Positions 1 to 6,533 of a stretch of DNA of 6,629 nt are shown here, piece after piece; the stretch's first letter is position 1, and each line of letters begins with the position of its first letter. The DNA comes from JAFGIT01 sp016929465 [NCBI: Candidatus Coatesbacteria bacterium] (GTDB lineage Bacteria > B130-G9). The stretch is taken from contig JAFGIT010000232.1 of the NCBI GenBank assembly GCA_016929465.1, positions 1 to 6,629 of the forward strand, in the 5' to 3' direction. A program made the position numbers and the translations under genes. Under the pieces are notes generated by a model that was not told the DNA's origin, did not search any database, and saw only the letters and a program-made list of their open reading frames with translations.

Positions 1-1071
1 ACTTCAGGTACTGCGCCTCAGATACGCATCGACGGCCTTCTTCAGCCGATGGATTACCCAGTCTTAACGACAAAGGACACAAAGCGACTTGCGTATTCGG
101 TCCTTACCGACGCACAGAAGCACCGCTTCGAAGAGGACAAAGAGCTCGACCTTTCGTTCGGCGTCAAGGGGCTCTCCAGGTTCAGAGGCAACCTGTTCCT
201 TCAGAAGGGTGGCGTTGCGGCCGCTTTCCGAACGATTCCATGGGAAATACTCGACTTCGGCACTTTGGGCCTGCCAAAGGTAGTCGAGAAGTTCCCGAAC
301 ATCCCGAAGGGCTTGATACTGGTGACCGGGCCGACCGGTAGCGGCAAGAGCACGACGCTTGCATCGATCATCAACAAGATCAATGAGGAGAAGCACCTCC
401 ACATCATCACGGTCGAGGACCCAATCGAGTATCTTCACAAGCACAAGAACTGCATCGTGAACCAGCGCGAAATCGGCGCTGACACGATGAGCTTCCCAAA
501 TGCTCTCAAATACGTTCTACGACAAGACCCCGACGTCATTCTGATCGGTGAGATGAGGGACATCGAGACGATTTCAGCGGCTCTTGTTATCTCAGAAACA
601 GGGCACCTTACATTCGCCACGCTACACACCAACTCTGCGGCTCAGACGATCAACCGTGTTATCGACGTATTCCCGCCGCATCAGCAGCCACAGGTGCGAA
701 CGCAGCTTTCCTTCGTTCTGCAAGGGGTTATGGTTCAGGCTCTCCTACCGAAGATGAGTGGTAGAGGCCGTTGTCTCGCAACAGAGGTTATGATCCCGAC
801 ACCCGCGATCAGAAACCTCATCCGAGAAGACAAGATCCACCAGATCTACTCGGTTATGCAGACTGGTCAGGAATTGCATGGTATGCAGACCCTCAATCAG
901 TCTTTGTTCAGGCTGTATCAGAGCAGGACGATATCGCTTCAAACGGCGATGTTCTCCTCGCTGAAGCCGCAGGAGCTGCAGCAGATGATCGCGGCAGGAA
1001 CCGAGACCGCAGCCACAACCTCGAAGCCTATGCCAGGCAGTGGTGGAAGCGCCATGCCAGGAGGCCAATAA
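1..1071 (+). CDS. pilT: Type IV pilus retraction ATPase PilT, 5' end cut off by the window
   Basis: This is the hexameric cytoplasmic ATPase that powers type IV pilus disassembly and twitching motility. The frame is open from base 1, and the first visible residues (APQIRIDGLL) match the start of the PilT N-terminal domain. The ATG at 49 is therefore internal, and by comparison with the family about 20 residues lie outside the window. Numbered from base 1, the visible 356 residues contain the Walker A motif GPTGSGKST (110-118), the Asp box VEDPIEYLH (about 138-146), the Walker B motif DPDVILIGEMRD (176-187) and the His box from HLTFATLHTNSAAQ onward (from 202). The PilT signature AIRNLIRE (269-276) separates it from PilB-type assembly ATPases and from PilU. 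The C-terminus ends in a short Met/Pro/Gly/Ser-rich tail beyond the usual fold. Translation stops at a tandem TAA TAG. It converges on the - strand operon and shows no functional tie to it. The call is very secure. Confidence 0.96.
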   Translation, partial: TSGTAPQIRIDGLLQPMDYPVLTTKDTKRLAYSVLTDAQKHRFEEDKELDLSFGVKGLSRFRGNLFLQKGGVAAAFRTIPWEILDFGTLGLPKVVEKFPNIPKGLILVTGPTGSGKSTTLASIINKINEEKHLHIITVEDPIEYLHKHKNCIVNQREIGADTMSFPNALKYVLRQDPDVILIGEMRDIETISAALVISETGHLTFATLHTNSAAQTINRVIDVFPPHQQPQVRTQLSFVLQGVMVQALLPKMSGRGRCLATEVMIPTPAIRNLIREDKIHQIYSVMQTGQELHGMQTLNQSLFRLYQSRTISLQTAMFSSLKPQELQQMIAAGTETAATTSKPMPGSGGSAMPGGQ

Positions 1072-1167: not shown

Positions 1168-2271
1168 CTATTCCGCTGGGGCGTTGTAGATCGACTTGTC
1201 GGTGTAAAAGGTAGGCTGCAGCAGGTCCTCTACGGACAATTTCGATTGCGCTGCTGCGAGTCTGTCATATAGCCTGACCATGCTATATGAGTGCTCGATC
1301 TCTTCCACTATCGGGAAAGTCTCGATGTTGTAGCGGTCGGCGGACCCGTTCTCGTCGAAGTAGAGCGCAACTGCTTTGATTGCCTTGCTCTTTGTGCCGA
1401 CCGGGGAGATTATTGTCGTCCCATGGATCAGGTCCTCATGTTGCTCCCTATCGGAGAGCAGTATTAGATCGATACTCGGGATACTCTCCGCAAGTTTGAG
1501 TGCCTCATCGAGGCTCATCTGCGCAAGCAAGATGACCACATTTGCGATAGTTGCATGAGACGCGAGTATCGGCTCCAGGGCTTCGACGGGTTCCTGCATC
1601 TCGATTGTCCTATTGCCGTCCGCATCCCTCGTCCACTCCGCAAGCAGTTCCTCCTCATCTGTCGAGATGACGCTGGTAACGAAAACCGTCGCCTCCGTTG
1701 ATCCCTCTATCAGAAAAGCATCGAAGACTGGGTCCCGCGTCTCGACGTCCAGCATGTTCGCGCAGAGGAACGGGAAGCGAGCATTCTTCTCAAGAGCCTT
1801 TAAGTGTTCGAGACCGAATACGAAGTCCTTTGGCCCAAGCCCCACTGCATCGTATGTCATCATATTAAAGGCTGCGATCATGTACCAGGATTCGAGTTTA
1901 TCTTGCGCGCAGTTGCAATTGAACAGGTTGCCCGAATCGAGGACGAGTGAATTCTCCCAAGCAGATAGGCACTGCAGGATATAGGTCCTTCTGCGCTCAA
2001 AGCCGCCGAGCTGAGGATCGGAGCAGCTGGAGCGCCTCATCGTTCCGTAGGTGTTTCCCGTGAAGAAAGCGACAACGCTCGGGGTTGCGGCAACTTCGAA
2101 GTCGACCTTCACGCTTACCGGGGGCCCCTCCGCAAGGCAGCTCGATACCGATATGAGAAGCAGAAGGGCTGTAAGGAGCGGCATCGCGCGAGACGCGACA
2201 GTCCTTACGTGCAGCAATGAGTCTGCCCTTGGGCTTACGGCGTCGCGTGCAACTCCGACGCCCATCGTCAT
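1168..2271 (-). CDS. Probable lipoprotein with a degenerate metallophosphoesterase/5'-nucleotidase-like domain
   Basis: Last gene of the operon, 367 residues from the ATG at 2271. That ATG overlaps the TGA of the carbamoyltransferase as ATGA; the open frame runs further upstream, but only inside the neighbouring gene. A hydrophobic stretch (about 31-44) ends in VSSC, which fits a lipobox, so Cys45 is probably the lipidated first residue of the mature protein. The N-region before it is unusually long. A later ATG at 2184 would give a very short signal, but it has no ribosome site at normal spacing. Residues from about 66 align with the first domain of the operon's first gene: CSDPQLGGFERR against CNCPIEPLGGVARR, LVLDSGNLF against LLLDGGGCF, YDAVGLGPKDFVFG against YDAVCIGDDEFGFG. 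In active family members these blocks carry DxH, DxGD and GNHE metal ligands; here they read NTY, DSGN and GPKD, and the later His motifs are also absent. It is thus probably not a phosphoesterase but a binding or structural protein. The C-terminal 5'-nucleotidase domain is missing. Function unknown. Confidence 0.85.
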   Translation of the reverse strand: MTMGVGVARDAVSPRADSLLHVRTVASRAMPLLTALLLLISVSSCLAEGPPVSVKVDFEVAATPSVVAFFTGNTYGTMRRSSCSDPQLGGFERRRTYILQCLSAWENSLVLDSGNLFNCNCAQDKLESWYMIAAFNMMTYDAVGLGPKDFVFGLEHLKALEKNARFPFLCANMLDVETRDPVFDAFLIEGSTEATVFVTSVISTDEEELLAEWTRDADGNRTIEMQEPVEALEPILASHATIANVVILLAQMSLDEALKLAESIPSIDLILLSDREQHEDLIHGTTIISPVGTKSKAIKAVALYFDENGSADRYNIETFPIVEEIEHSYSMVRLYDRLAAAQSKLSVEDLLQPTFYTDKSIYNAPAE

Positions 2272-3989
2272 TCGCCCCGACCGCGCGAGGGTTTTGTCAG
2301 GAGGAAGTCGGAGATGATGAGGTCGTCGAGTCCGGTTGTATAGAAGCATCGAAGCGCGTCTTTCGGCGTGCAGACTATCGGCTCTTCCTTGATGTTGAAG
2401 GAGGTGTTCATGACAACTGGGACTCCCGTCAGCTTCTCGAATTCAGAGATCAGCCGGTAGTAGAGCGGATCCATGTCCTTCTCAACGCTATGAACGCGAC
2501 CGGTGCCATCGACGTGTGTAACAGACGGGATAATATCGCGCTTCTCTGGCAAGACGTTATAGACTAGCAGCATGAAGGGTGATGGATACGAGAAATCGAA
2601 GTATTCGGAGACTTTCTCGGCCAATACGGAAGGTGCGAAAGGCCTGAAAGACTCGCGGTGCTTCACGAGCTCATTCACGATGTCCTTCATGTCGGGATCA
2701 CGAGGATCGGCGAGGATGCTCCGCTTGCCCAGGGCTCTCGGACCGAACTCCATTCGCCCCTGGAACCAGCCGACGATACGGCCCTTGGCGAGTCGAGCTG
2801 CCGCTTCCTTCGCGGGGTCCTTTACTTCCTTATAGGGAACCTTCGCGAGCTTGAGGAAAGCCTCGACCTCGGACTTGCTGTATTCCGGCCCCCAGAAAGC
2901 ATGGTCCATCACGAAGTCTCGCTTTGCGCCGAGTAGTCCGTTGTGGATATAGAAAGCCGCACCGACTGCGGCGCCCGCATCGTAGGCTGCCGGCTGGATG
3001 TAGGCCTCTTTGTAATTCGATTGCATCATGAGCTTGCCATTCGCCACACAATTCAGCGCAACTCCGCCATTCATGCAGATGTTCTTGCTGCCAGTCACCT
3101 TCTGCAAGTAGTTCGCCATGTGGATTATGGCATCCTCGAGCCTTCTCTGGCCGCCGAGGGCAACCTCCGCGTGGCGCTCGGTGACCTCCTGGTCGTGCTT
3201 CCTGTCGTCTCCAAAGGTCAGCAGGAACTTGTCGGAATAGTATGGGATCTCACCATACTGGTAATTGAAGAACGACATGTCCATCTCGTACTCGCCTTCG
3301 GGAAGCAGCCTGACGACCCGCTTGAATTCCTTGTAATACTCGTCGGTCTTCCCGTATGACGAAAGGCCCATAACCTTATACTCGTCGGAATTGCGCTTGA
3401 AGCCGAGGTAGGTTGTCAAAGTCGTGTAGAATGCGCCCAGTGAATAGGGGAAGAAAGTCTCCTTGAGCCTCTTGATCTCATTGCCGCGCCCAGAGGCGAG
3501 AAAGGTGGTGGTCCACTCCCCGATGCCATCGGCGCTGAGTATCGCCGCGTCATCAAAGGGGGAGATCGTGTAGCATCCATAGGCGTGGGCGAGGTGGTGT
3601 TCGACGAACTGGAATTTGAATCTCGCCTGCTGCGGATCGTAGCCCGGCACCCTCTTGAGGTAGGACTTGGCAACCATCATCGATGGTATGCCGCCCGAGT
3701 AATCGGCCTGGTCCTTACAGAACGCGAGCGTCCGAGGGAAGTACTTAACGAGGTGGAATATCTTCCTGTGCAGATTGAGCCACGGATTGATGCAAAAAGC
3801 GACCCAAGCAACGTCGTTGATTGTGGCTCCGACTTCCTTCAGACAGTAGTTGATCGCCCCATAGGGGAAACCACCGTCGTGCTTTTTGCGTGAGAATCTC
3901 TCCTCCTCTGCGGCGGCCTTCAGTTTGCCATCCACCAGCACGCACGCGGCGGAGTCATGTTGAAATGCTGTTATTCCTAATATGATCAT
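2268..3989 (-). CDS. NodU/CmcH/TobZ-family O-carbamoyltransferase
   Basis: Complete 573-residue cytoplasmic enzyme. Family members activate carbamoyl phosphate with ATP to a carbamoyl-adenylate in a Kae1-like domain, then pass the carbamoyl group to a hydroxyl, often of a sugar, in the same protein. The N-terminus GITAFQHDSAACVLVDGKL with EEERFSRKKHD is typical. The predicted metal site is intact: H131 and H135 in EHHLAHA, D154 in ADGIGE and D337 in AYDAGAA, with the same first spacings (4 and 19) as I recall for TobZ; H11 of QHDSA is the expected catalytic His. Other family blocks are NGGVALNCVANGKL (308-321), the carbamoyltransferase C-domain motif MEFGPRALGKRSILADPRDP (413-432), FRPFAPSVL (448-456) and MNTSFNIKEEPIV (527-539). 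HypF is excluded because acylphosphatase and zinc-finger regions are absent. The ATG overlaps the upstream TGA as ATGA, and the downstream gene begins in the same way at its stop. The acceptor is unknown; the exported neighbours suggest a surface or exported product. Confidence 0.95.
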   Translation of the reverse strand: MIILGITAFQHDSAACVLVDGKLKAAAEEERFSRKKHDGGFPYGAINYCLKEVGATINDVAWVAFCINPWLNLHRKIFHLVKYFPRTLAFCKDQADYSGGIPSMMVAKSYLKRVPGYDPQQARFKFQFVEHHLAHAYGCYTISPFDDAAILSADGIGEWTTTFLASGRGNEIKRLKETFFPYSLGAFYTTLTTYLGFKRNSDEYKVMGLSSYGKTDEYYKEFKRVVRLLPEGEYEMDMSFFNYQYGEIPYYSDKFLLTFGDDRKHDQEVTERHAEVALGGQRRLEDAIIHMANYLQKVTGSKNICMNGGVALNCVANGKLMMQSNYKEAYIQPAAYDAGAAVGAAFYIHNGLLGAKRDFVMDHAFWGPEYSKSEVEAFLKLAKVPYKEVKDPAKEAAARLAKGRIVGWFQGRMEFGPRALGKRSILADPRDPDMKDIVNELVKHRESFRPFAPSVLAEKVSEYFDFSYPSPFMLLVYNVLPEKRDIIPSVTHVDGTGRVHSVEKDMDPLYYRLISEFEKLTGVPVVMNTSFNIKEEPIVCTPKDALRCFYTTGLDDLIISDFLLTKPSRGRGE

Positions 3990-6433
3990 TCCTTGGTCTT
4001 CCTCTCATTGGAGCGCTCTGCCATCTGCTTTAGAACATCCTCGAGCATCTTGTTGTTCGCAATGGGAACCACCTCACGGTTGTCTATCAATAGCACCAGA
4101 GCGCCTCCTACTCGCAGCTCTTCACAGAGCTTCGCATCCGACATCAGCTTCGACTGCACCGTCTCGGATACCGATAATTCCTTGACCTTCGCGGGCTCGA
4201 ATCCCGCCTTCTCAATCGGCTCCTCCCAATACGAGTTGTCAGGCTCCTTGCCTCGGATGAGAATATACTCATCGAACTTCGCCCCATCCAGCATCAGCAT
4301 CGCTGCCTGGCGCCTTGCTTCCTGAAGCTCGGGGCGACCAGAACGTGCCAGGAGTTCGCCTTTGTCATCTCGATAGAGAATATATCGAACCTCGAAGGGA
4401 TAGGATAGCTCACCTTTTTTGCGCATCTCGATCATAGAGCCAAGGCCCTGGAGACCAGCCTCCATAGTCGCCGATATGAACACATCGAGTTTATTCCTAA
4501 TCGCCGGCCTGTTCGCGACAATCGTCGCCCCTGACAGTTCAGATCGAAAGACCAGGCGGTCCCCGACTTTCTTGAACGCCGACTTTAGATGTGAGAAATT
4601 CTTGGCCCGTTGTGCCTCCATGCCGAATATGTACCCCGGCAGGTAATCGATCTCGTATTGCTTGATGAGGCTCTTGCCCTCTTCGGATGACGCCTCGATC
4701 CGCCTGATATCGAGTCCCGGCATGAGGACCTTCGTTGAGTCTATTACCCGCTCCTGGTTGGTCGCCACTGAGTTCTCGTCATAGATCAACCAGACCGGGA
4801 CCTTCACTGCCTCGTCATACAGGCACTTCGCATCCTTGGTCCCGGGATTCTCACAACGGGCGATCATGCCCTCTTTCGAGGGGCAATCGTAATCGTGCAG
4901 ACACTCGGGCAGGTCCTTGCACGCCGGAACGCCCTCTGAGTGAGGCCCCAGTATCGTGCAGACCTTGCGCATCAGAAGCGTCTTGTCGATGCGTTCATTG
5001 AATCTCTGGTTATTGATATAGAGCGTTGGTGACGCATTGACGCGGAGCCTCTCCGCTCTCGCTGCCATGCTCTTCAGCATTTTGTCCGTGTAGTCGCTCC
5101 CCAGACATTCTGAAAGTGCCGCGGTATCAATCCCGACGCTCGCCGCGCATTCCTCCCAGCTCGTTCCGGAAACAGATGAATCACGACATGCCACGTAGGA
5201 GAGGAACTTGTCCTGCTGTGTCCTCATTATGCAGAGTCGGCGCCTGTCCTCCTCGATCTCGTCTTCGCCGTAAAGAGCATCTAGGCCGCCCTCTTCGTTG
5301 AACCGGACTAGATAGAAGACATGAGGATCGACTACATCTCCGAGAGCCTTCTCAACCTGGAATAAGGTCCTGAACGCTGGCTTCGAATGCGGGCAGAAGC
5401 TCATCATATAGAGGTCGAGTCTTACCTTGGGCTTTACCGCTCCCGAGGTGCGTAGGGCCTTGAATTCATTGGCCAGTTTTGCAGCATCGGGATCATCCTC
5501 GATCTCTCTGCTGAGAGGTATATCCTCGACCGAGAGGCGCTGGCTCAATTCCTCTACCTCGGGCTTGAGCCGAGCCAAGAGCAGGTCCTGGCCCTGGTAG
5601 TCGAAGTTGACGATGTGGGTCTTCTCCACCTCGAACGAGCGCCTCATCGAGGTCCGCCGTCCGGAATTGAAGACCAGGTCTATCCCGGGGACTTCCTTCG
5701 CAAGTTTCTCGGAGTCCTCCTCGCTCTGGTGCGACAGGACCACGGCTACGTCGAATTTGCCTTGCTGCTCCTTCAGCAGCTTCAGGACCGACTTTATCGG
5801 ATCGAACACAACCAAGCCTGCAAATGCCTCCCAGTTGTCGCTCAGAGCGACCTCTGGTGTGGTGACCCCAATAATTAGGACTCGTTTCTCTCCCGCCGTC
5901 TTTATGATTAAGGGCTTGACGAATGGCTCGCCGGACTCCTTCTGGATGTTGCAGGACACGAAGGTCAGGCCGAGCTCTTTCTCCGCCCACTTAATCGCCT
6001 CTTGTCCGAATCCGAATTCGTCGTCGCCGATACAGACGGCGTCGTATCCCATCTGTGCCATAGCCTTGAGGGCCACGAAGGTGCGCTGCTTGTCGAGCTC
6101 GTCGCCCTGCGTGTATTCGTCATAGATGCCCTTTGCGAAGCACCCTCCGCCATCGAGGAGGAGCAGGTCGCGGAACTCGTCGCGAAGGGCCTTGATCTCC
6201 GTCGCGCGTCTTGCTACTCCGCCCAGCGGCTCAATCGGGCAGTTGCACGGCTCGATCATCGCGTGCGTCTCTCCCGTGTAGGCGATGGCTATCTCGGGGG
6301 AGGTAGTTGATGAACTCGCTTGTGGGGCTTCCGCCTGGGCATCCGCCTGCGCGAATCCTATCGACGCCGAAAGCACCAGGCAAAGCGCCAGAATGACAGT
6401 GAGTAAATATCTTACGTGAATAAGTTCTCTCAA
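3986..6433 (-). CDS. Exported multidomain protein: degenerate metallophosphoesterase-like domain fused to DsbA/thioredoxin-like folds
   Basis: First gene of the operon, 815 residues from a TTG at 6433. The open frame begins 24 codons earlier, at a TTG inside the promoter -10 box, so that start is unlikely. The chosen TTG has GGGAG 8 bases upstream and gives a clean Sec signal (LLTVILALCLVLSASIGFAQA, cleavage near residue 30). Residues about 46-300 resemble the UshA-type phosphoesterase domain, but ligands are altered: DxH is ETH (55-57), DxGD is DGGG (94-97), GNHE is GDDE (136-139) and GGHxH is replaced near 256-260; His57, Asp94 and His235 remain. Residues about 336-495 form a DsbA-like fold with CPHS (347-350) and the cis-Pro motif ASPTL (P469). 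Then come a six-cysteine segment (492-537), a thioredoxin-like fold without cysteines (about 545-625, LPGYIF at 598-603), and a second DsbA-like module (about 647-790) with TMEAG at the CPHS site. It probably acts in the periplasm. Whether the first thioredoxin fold is a reductase, isomerase or only a scaffold is not known; no named family is claimed. Confidence 0.85.
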   Translation of the reverse strand: MRELIHVRYLLTVILALCLVLSASIGFAQADAQAEAPQASSSTTSPEIAIAYTGETHAMIEPCNCPIEPLGGVARRATEIKALRDEFRDLLLLDGGGCFAKGIYDEYTQGDELDKQRTFVALKAMAQMGYDAVCIGDDEFGFGQEAIKWAEKELGLTFVSCNIQKESGEPFVKPLIIKTAGEKRVLIIGVTTPEVALSDNWEAFAGLVVFDPIKSVLKLLKEQQGKFDVAVVLSHQSEEDSEKLAKEVPGIDLVFNSGRRTSMRRSFEVEKTHIVNFDYQGQDLLLARLKPEVEELSQRLSVEDIPLSREIEDDPDAAKLANEFKALRTSGAVKPKVRLDLYMMSFCPHSKPAFRTLFQVEKALGDVVDPHVFYLVRFNEEGGLDALYGEDEIEEDRRRLCIMRTQQDKFLSYVACRDSSVSGTSWEECAASVGIDTAALSECLGSDYTDKMLKSMAARAERLRVNASPTLYINNQRFNERIDKTLLMRKVCTILGPHSEGVPACKDLPECLHDYDCPSKEGMIARCENPGTKDAKCLYDEAVKVPVWLIYDENSVATNQERVIDSTKVLMPGLDIRRIEASSEEGKSLIKQYEIDYLPGYIFGMEAQRAKNFSHLKSAFKKVGDRLVFRSELSGATIVANRPAIRNKLDVFISATMEAGLQGLGSMIEMRKKGELSYPFEVRYILYRDDKGELLARSGRPELQEARRQAAMLMLDGAKFDEYILIRGKEPDNSYWEEPIEKAGFEPAKVKELSVSETVQSKLMSDAKLCEELRVGGALVLLIDNREVVPIANNKMLEDVLKQMAERSNERKTKE
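3998..4006 (-). promoter_or_regulatory. Ribosome binding site of the carbamoyltransferase, inside the upstream gene
   Basis: On the - strand GAGAGGAAG lies in the last codons of the upstream gene, with AGGA about 10 bases before the ATG at 3989. A second AAGGA abuts the ATG directly and is too close to serve. The site supports this start and reinitiation at the ATGA overlap. Confidence 0.55.
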
Positions 6434-6503: not shown

Positions 6504-6533
6504 AATATAGGCGAATTAATCGCCGACTGTCAA
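6504..6533 (-). promoter_or_regulatory. Sigma70-type promoter for the three-gene operon
   Basis: Reading on the - strand, a perfect TTGACA (-35, 6528-6533) is followed after 18 bases by TATATT (-10, 6504-6509, five of six to consensus). Transcription would begin near 6497, leaving an untranslated leader of about 65 bases before the TTG start at 6433. This is the only strong promoter-like match seen for the block. Confidence 0.65.
6510..6524. repeat. Inverted repeat inside the promoter spacer, possible operator
   Basis: GGCGATTAATTCGCC (- strand) has 5-bp arms GGCGA and TCGCC around five A/T bases. It lies wholly between the -35 and -10 boxes and directly abuts the -10, where a bound dimeric regulator would block polymerase. 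The arms are short, so a chance origin is possible. No regulator gene is visible. Confidence 0.35.

Follow-up and report, generated by a model that had tools for sequence, protein, structure and literature searches.

A lineage-specific operon that may couple a class III O-carbamoyltransferase to two putative envelope thiol proteins with a worn-out UshA-type domain

The stretch of DNA analysed here (the window, 6,629 nucleotides) is the entire contig G000:C370 of a Candidatus Coatesbacteria genome, whose assembly comprises 423 contigs and is 86% complete. On its minus strand lie three genes, U1, CT and U2, which may form a lineage-specific operon in which a cytosolic class III O-carbamoyltransferase (CT) is coupled with two envelope thiol proteins (U1 and U2) built on a worn-out UshA-type domain, a reading to which we assign a probability of about 0.35. 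U1 (positions 3986 to 6433, TTG start) encodes a predicted exported protein of 815 amino acids, with a UshA-type domain carrying CNC, a DsbA/GILT-like domain carrying CPHS, a Cys-rich segment and further thioredoxin-like parts. Profile matches identify CT (2268 to 3989, 573 amino acids) as an enzyme of the NodU/TobZ/GdmN type without any signal-like segment. U2 (1168 to 2271, 367 amino acids) is predicted to be an exported UshA-type pseudo-phosphoesterase, with SSC at the position of a selenocysteine motif. An earlier note on this DNA had described a three-gene operon with a NodU-type enzyme between two exported proteins, and its genes, domains and coordinates were confirmed; the thioredoxin-fold domains of U1 are absent from that description. 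Each part of the cassette comes from a known superfamily. The note knew of no described system composed in this way, and likewise we found no description of, or match for, the U1-CT-U2 combination in the open-licence literature.

Architecture of the operon and its carbamoyltransferase

Homologue searches took in 386 genomes and, from GTDB r220, the 80 nearest carbamoyltransferases, a set that may omit records very near the window; the genome database covers about half of the known species. The gene order U1-CT-U2 was present in all four genomes of the window's phylum, namely the window genome (G000) and its relatives G001, G002 and G003, which represent three genera. The order across genera, which the earlier note had proposed to check, is thus kept. 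Both junctions of the window are four-base ATGA overlaps, as had been claimed (U1/CT at 3986 to 3989 and CT/U2 at 2268 to 2271, minus strand). Four-base overlaps were found at 8/8 junctions of the four cassettes: the U1/CT overlap occurs in 4/4 genomes, and the CT/U2 junction sequence is GTGA in the three relatives. Overlaps of four bases are a common type in bacteria and alone are no proof of fixed stoichiometry, so that this part of the earlier proposal went beyond the evidence.

Upstream of U1, a sigma-70-like promoter is predicted (TTGACA-18-TATATT, 6504 to 6533, minus strand), with 11 of 12 consensus matches. The promoter scan of the window alone was weak (5 sites versus 3.3 expected), but the recurrence of a promoter-like site, TTGAC[A/C]-17/18-TATATT, before U1 in 4/4 genomes is not. 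The TTG start of U1 has GGGAG eight bases upstream; the longest open reading frame of U1 (an 839-amino-acid frame) reaches position 6505, but in the promoter-like site with the best score the -10 element ends at 6504. Over the length that the contigs cover, the flanking genes, judged by eye, are not the same in the window, G001 and G002. In a quick tree of 107 enzymes (the 4 cassette CTs, 23 paralogues of the four genomes, fragments being left out, and 80 outside enzymes), the cassette CTs formed one clade with a Shimodaira-Hasegawa-like approximate likelihood ratio test (SH-aLRT) support of 99, indicating that the unit was inherited together. The conserved order, the overlaps and the promoter-like site make it likely that the three genes share a process or, failing that, their regulation, in agreement with the earlier note.

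By its domains and residues, CT is a class III O-carbamoyltransferase, for which transfer of the carbamoyl group of carbamoyl phosphate, by way of carbamoyl-AMP, to a hydroxyl is predicted. It matches Carbam_trans_N (2.3e-60, 205.3 bits versus a cut-off of 24) and Carbam_trans_C (3.2e-72, 242 bits versus 27), and both domains also exceeded their cut-offs in the cassette CTs of the three relatives. It further matches GdmN across residues 8-564 (E 3.5e-108), TobZ in three stretches (E 1.3e-90) and the phage family phrog_1601, "Nol-like carbamoyltransferase" (1e-123); the NodU equivalog NF041651 scored 156 bits, below its cut-off of 1000. Identity to the 80 nearest GTDB r220 enzymes was at most 47% (reported best segment). 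According to excerpts of PMC9633730, GdmN binds iron through H133, H137, D156 and D333 and uses H27 as general base. By alignment, these residues correspond to H131 and H135 (3585 to 3599), D154 (3528 to 3530), D337 (2979 to 2981; all minus strand) and H11 of CT. The window, G001 and G003 all have the iron ligands and the catalytic His, so that CT resembles TobZ, GdmN and NodU in both Pfam domains, the His base and, in 3/4 cassettes, all four iron ligands. It differs from them by forming a clade of its own, by its seat between exported proteins and by one degenerate orthologue. The same excerpts state that class III enzymes lacking a dimerisation domain usually have polar acceptors. The C-terminal Pfam domain of CT stops at residue 566 of 573, too close to the end for a C-terminal dimerisation domain to follow. 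None of the four CTs has an N-terminal hydrophobic segment (best 15-residue mean 1.06-1.54), in line with the cytoplasmic location given in the earlier note.

Carbamoyltransferase matches, fragments included, numbered 10, 9, 7 and 8 in G000 to G003. One carbamoyltransferase clade (C313, C120, C234 and C239) is set off by a very long branch (2.09). Its member on G000:C313 (L008, 1500-4210) lies, judged by eye, directly downstream of a radical SAM-like gene.

The exported pair and its UshA-type domain

Residues 27-358 of U1 (in the 839-amino-acid frame) share 26% identity with U2 (E 9e-20), which bears out the common domain proposed earlier and shows it to be of a degenerate UshA type. Both proteins match the NCBIfam family UshA_like_PCGU (NF041198) below its cut-off of 275 bits (U1, 7.9e-41 and 140.2 bits; U2, 5.5e-37 and 127.5 bits) as well as phrog_19584, a family of unknown function (3.4e-19 and 4.4e-9, respectively). 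We aligned 60 sequences: 4 U1, 4 U2 and 52 distinct outside sequences with E up to 1e-15, chosen by likeness to U1/U2, weaker matches being dropped. Canonical rows of this alignment (e.g., L153 and L037) show NDxH, GD, GNHE, H and GHxH. The motifs GD, GNHE and GHxH, which we take to form the binuclear metal site of UshA, are lost in 4/4 U1 and 4/4 U2; U1 keeps ETH and one H of the metal motifs, and U2 keeps none.

A Cys/selenocysteine (Sec) site lies between the first motif and GGxxR, and it reads CNC in 4/4 U1 and SSC in 4/4 U2. In the window, C63-N64-C65 of U1 (6239 to 6247, minus strand) aligns where UshA-like selenoproteins have their CxU selenocysteine motif, and C83 of U2 (2023 to 2025, minus strand) is the only Cys of that protein at the motif. 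At the same site, the 52 outside sequences carry TGA (Sec) at the second Cys-like position in 19 cases (17 CGU, 1 SGU and 1 CPTU), CxC in 16, CPTC in 3 and none of these in 14. The loss of the phosphoesterase motifs together with CxC/SxC means that U1 and U2 are better read as thiol proteins than as phosphatases. Thiol chemistry at these sites is also suggested by fusions, since related proteins are joined to CXXCH cytochrome segments (in the window's own genome and in G384) or to the same thioredoxin region as in U1 (in G357, G120 and G257). The UshA-like CxU selenoproteins have been described as a family (excerpts of PMC2398784, PMC9312934 and PMC13188914). U1 and U2 share with NF041198 the domain and the position of the Cys/Sec motif, and differ from it by their scores below the cut-off, the lack of a C-terminal cytochrome segment, the thioredoxin domains of U1 and the single Cys of U2. 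They are likewise kin by sequence to the periplasmic 5'-nucleotidase UshA and the thiosulfohydrolase SoxB, from which they differ in that the metal-ligand motifs are mostly (U1) or wholly (U2) lost.

The C-terminal half of U1 is DsbA/GILT-like, with MSxCP, an SPT loop, a Cys-rich segment and, by eye, an apparent second copy that is free of cysteine; PF01323 was matched at 26.6 bits against a cut-off of 25.6. Its thioredoxin-type motif, in the DsbA-like domain, is the monothiol C347-P-H-S350 (5384 to 5395, minus strand). Across the four cassettes the motif reads CPHS, CPYS, CPYA and CPHS, with the SPT loop in 4/4 and a DsbA-type CxxC in none, and its first cysteine is kept in 12/12 aligned proteins. 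DsbA/GILT-type proteins and U1-half proteins of other phyla (G316, G037 and G182) share MSxCP, the SP[TA] loop and nearly the whole C-terminal half, and U1 differs from them by its fusion to the UshA-type domain and its monothiol site. N-terminal hydrophobic segments were present in 8/8 U1/U2 proteins (best 15-residue mean 2.17-2.75), and export of both is thus predicted, as the earlier note had it. Its further suggestion that U2 is a probable lipoprotein went beyond the evidence: U2 has the lipobox cysteine in the window and G002 but lacks it in G001 and G003, so that this is not a conserved property of U2.

Several relatives of the domain deserve mention. In L050 (1282-2620; G000:C150), and also in L051 and L052, a UshA-like selenoprotein gene with an in-frame TGA (PCGU) runs into CXXCH motifs. 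By eye, a tyrosine recombinase-like gene adjoins it in all three loci, and Mla-type ABC/MCE transporter-like genes lie on its other side in L050 and L051. L175 (553-3531) encodes a 992-amino-acid protein made of UshA-type (PCGC), cytochrome c554-type and thioredoxin domains; in G384, UshA-type, cytochrome and thioredoxin parts occur in one protein.

Occurrence outside the phylum

According to the earlier note, its association would be refuted if related carbamoyltransferases had no such neighbours in close relatives and if the exported proteins were found mostly elsewhere. Distant carbamoyltransferases indeed lack these neighbours: a U1/U2-like gene was found near 0/80 of the nearest GTDB r220 enzymes (flanks of at most 6 kb, less where a contig ended) and in 0/114 carbamoyltransferase loci outside the cassette (loci of differing lengths, some being the same place twice). 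All four genomes of the phylum, however, have them. The reverse set, 101 loci with a U-like gene, is a weaker test, with a median length of 3.7 kb versus 10.7 kb and some duplicates. As to the exported proteins, U2 orthologues (E <1e-199) occurred only in the four phylum genomes among the 386, the next match being at 7e-32. Full-length U1, in a search that scored two candidates per genome, occurred among the matches listed in the four genomes and in G357, from another phylum (E 1.7e-165, one of the 4 genomes there). No U1 relative was detected on plasmids at E 1e-10, and none is encoded by the 28 stretches of viral contigs that matched the pattern.

In other loci with U1-like genes, the neighbours were named by eye. 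L170 (9540-11960) holds the one full-length U1 relative that turned up outside the phylum (33% identity), alone between translation- and ATP-synthase-like genes. Divergent UshA-thioredoxin fusions with CPHC are found in L174 (7608-9788) and L176 (9250-11439), from two genomes of another phylum, between the same neighbours, which may be one UbiB-like and one PfkB-type kinase. G357 also encodes a carbamoyltransferase within a 1048-amino-acid frame that has a long C-terminal extension (L179, 2934-6080).

The remaining gene of the window lies outside the cassette, a 5'-truncated PilT/PilU-type pilus ATPase gene (1 to 1071, plus strand) that converges with the operon. It had no BLAST match in L045-L047, and the G003 contig ends too near the cassette to tell. 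No Rfam family reached its gathering score in the window, and 0/3 cassette proteins matched the PADLOC models of anti-phage defence.

Weighing the readings of the operon

We infer a polar acceptor and a common pathway for U1, CT and U2. In the favoured reading, CT would use carbamoyl phosphate and adenosine triphosphate to carbamoylate a hydroxyl of a polar compound, such as a sugar, a glycan precursor or a lipid head group, and the carbamoylated compound would end in the envelope. There, the exported U1 and U2 would use their CxC/SxC site to act on or bind this compound or its carrier, and the thioredoxin-like domains of U1 would supply or take thiol equivalents. In the lineage of G002, carbamoylation would have been lost or replaced and CT kept for a non-catalytic part in binding or regulation.

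Several points weigh against this coupling. U1-type fusions have no carbamoyltransferase neighbour in 3/3 mapped outside loci (G357, G120 and G257): the U1 relative of G357 has neither CT nor U2 beside it, and the U1-like fusions of G120 and G257 are more distant and carry a dithiol CPHC. No glycan or secretion/export gene, the kind of neighbour that the earlier note had proposed to compare, was seen conserved beside the cassette (by eye, on short contigs). Among G000, G001 and G003, identity is 82-93% for CT versus 56-83% for U1/U2, so that the constraints look different. For the proposed thiol chemistry, the monothiol motif of 4/4 U1 implies that classical dithiol exchange is not expected, and excerpts of PMC2398784 set the UshA-like proteins apart from selenoprotein families with Cys-based redox motifs. 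Structure prediction reached a mean predicted local distance difference test score (pLDDT) of 35.8 for the C-terminal half of U1 and 32.5 for U2 alone and was not used. Finally, the CT of G002 has lost two of the four iron ligands (H131Y and D337Q) and is the sole row of 107 with either change. Of the 70 near-invariant columns (those in which at least 95% of the remaining 106 rows agree), it deviates in 23, compared with a median of 1. This loss, with U1 and U2 kept, indicates that carbamoylation is not essential to U1/U2 in that genome.

Some of these points would fit co-transcription without a common pathway, in which CT and the exported pair share only a promoter and expression conditions. 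Indeed, U1-type fusions elsewhere do without a carbamoyltransferase neighbour, CT evolves at a rate unlike that of U1/U2 and acts in a different compartment, and in G002 it decayed while U1 and U2 kept their motifs. However, the order and the four-base overlaps persist over three genera while the flanks change, and an unrelated gene would be unlikely to persist in a spot between two related genes. We regard this alternative as possible but rather doubtful.

The degenerate CT bears on what the enzyme contributes. Besides the iron ligands, it carries DGG instead of PRA in the FGPRALG motif and IAPLK instead of NTSFN. The next highest departure from the near-invariant columns was 9 (a row cut at the contig end, with 6 gaps), and the highest without gaps was 8 (G002_C239). 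A paralogue swapped into the cassette was considered and rejected on the single clade of cassette CTs, which comes from a quick tree with a long G002 branch. Nor were TGA/TAG codons inside carbamoyltransferases taken for recoding: the TGA of the G002 cassette CT is its own stop, and C349, C245 and C313 have full-length open frames, which fits a stop counted at the match end. Thus, the carbamoylation of an exported molecule that the earlier note put forward is possible for three cassettes and is not general.

These losses stand beside extensive preservation. The G002 protein is full length and keeps both Pfam domains (4.6e-48 and 3.4e-44), its cassette keeps both overlaps, the promoter-like site and the position of CT between U1 and U2, and the motifs CNC, CPHS and SSC of U1 and U2 are intact. 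When neutral drift was simulated to the same loss, starting from the G001 gene (69 of 70 columns intact) and assuming simple random changes, 0/1000 frames stayed open, with a mean of 8.1 stops and a minimum of 1, indicating that the frame has been under selection. Differences between the G002 and window CTs at codon positions 1/2/3 were 0.37/0.26/0.60. All this would suit a CT that serves mainly as a cytosolic binder, scaffold or sensor, catalysis being an ancestral or side activity already dropped by one genus. We consider it unlikely as a general account: G000, G001 and G003 have an intact active site, and in them neither U1 nor U2 is as conserved as CT, which fits selected catalysis. Moreover, G002 CT retains H11, H132, H135, D154, W408, R412, G421 and R423, so that some ligand binding or a changed activity may remain. 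Excerpts of PMC8670742 place TobZ residues with the numbers W408, G421 and R423 near the pocket for carbamoyl phosphate and adenosine diphosphate, an agreement by number only. The selection on the frame possibly reflects a need for translation flowing into U2, the protein-level constraint may predate the catalytic loss, and the decay could be recent. Loosely aimed searches of mostly open-licence literature showed no report of an inactive carbamoyltransferase among the papers listed.

Two further readings fare much worse. In a HypF-like scheme, CT would carbamoylate a cysteine of a metabolite or protein and leave the handling of the product to the exported thiol proteins. Class II HypF does transfer carbamoyl to a thiol (PMC9633730, in excerpt) and U1/U2 carry a conserved thiol site, but CT lacks the extra domains of HypF, matches hypF weakly (3.3e-4) and aligns to class III GdmN over 8-564, and U1/U2 look exported whereas CT looks cytosolic; we hold this scheme to be highly improbable. 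Nucleotide salvage by U1/U2 as working periplasmic 5'-nucleotidases that recycle adenosine monophosphate (AMP) or related products can be dismissed almost entirely, since their UshA/SoxB ancestry by sequence comes with the loss of GD, GNHE and GHxH in all eight proteins and of every canonical metal-ligand motif in U2, on which a working nucleotidase was rejected, and CT would produce its AMP in the cytosol.

For the three genomes with a complete active site, and not for G002, our leading guess is that CT carbamoylates an envelope-bound polar compound. A bolder and rather improbable version is an envelope thiol module, whose cytosolic partner of the CT fold would have begun as a tagging enzyme and become a selected pseudoenzyme in at least one genus, and whose exported partners would be nucleotidases converted to thiol proteins and, elsewhere, to selenoproteins. 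The listing of UshA-like CxU proteins among the selenoproteins goes back to 2008 (PMC2398784), and the excerpts of PMC2398784, PMC9312934 and PMC13188914 give no reaction for them. The operon ties relatives of these proteins to carbamoyl transfer and to thioredoxin-type domains and thereby offers a genetic handle on them. If it is true that CT has persisted in G002 after the loss of iron ligands and of the FGPRALG motif, it would be an unusual pseudoenzyme.

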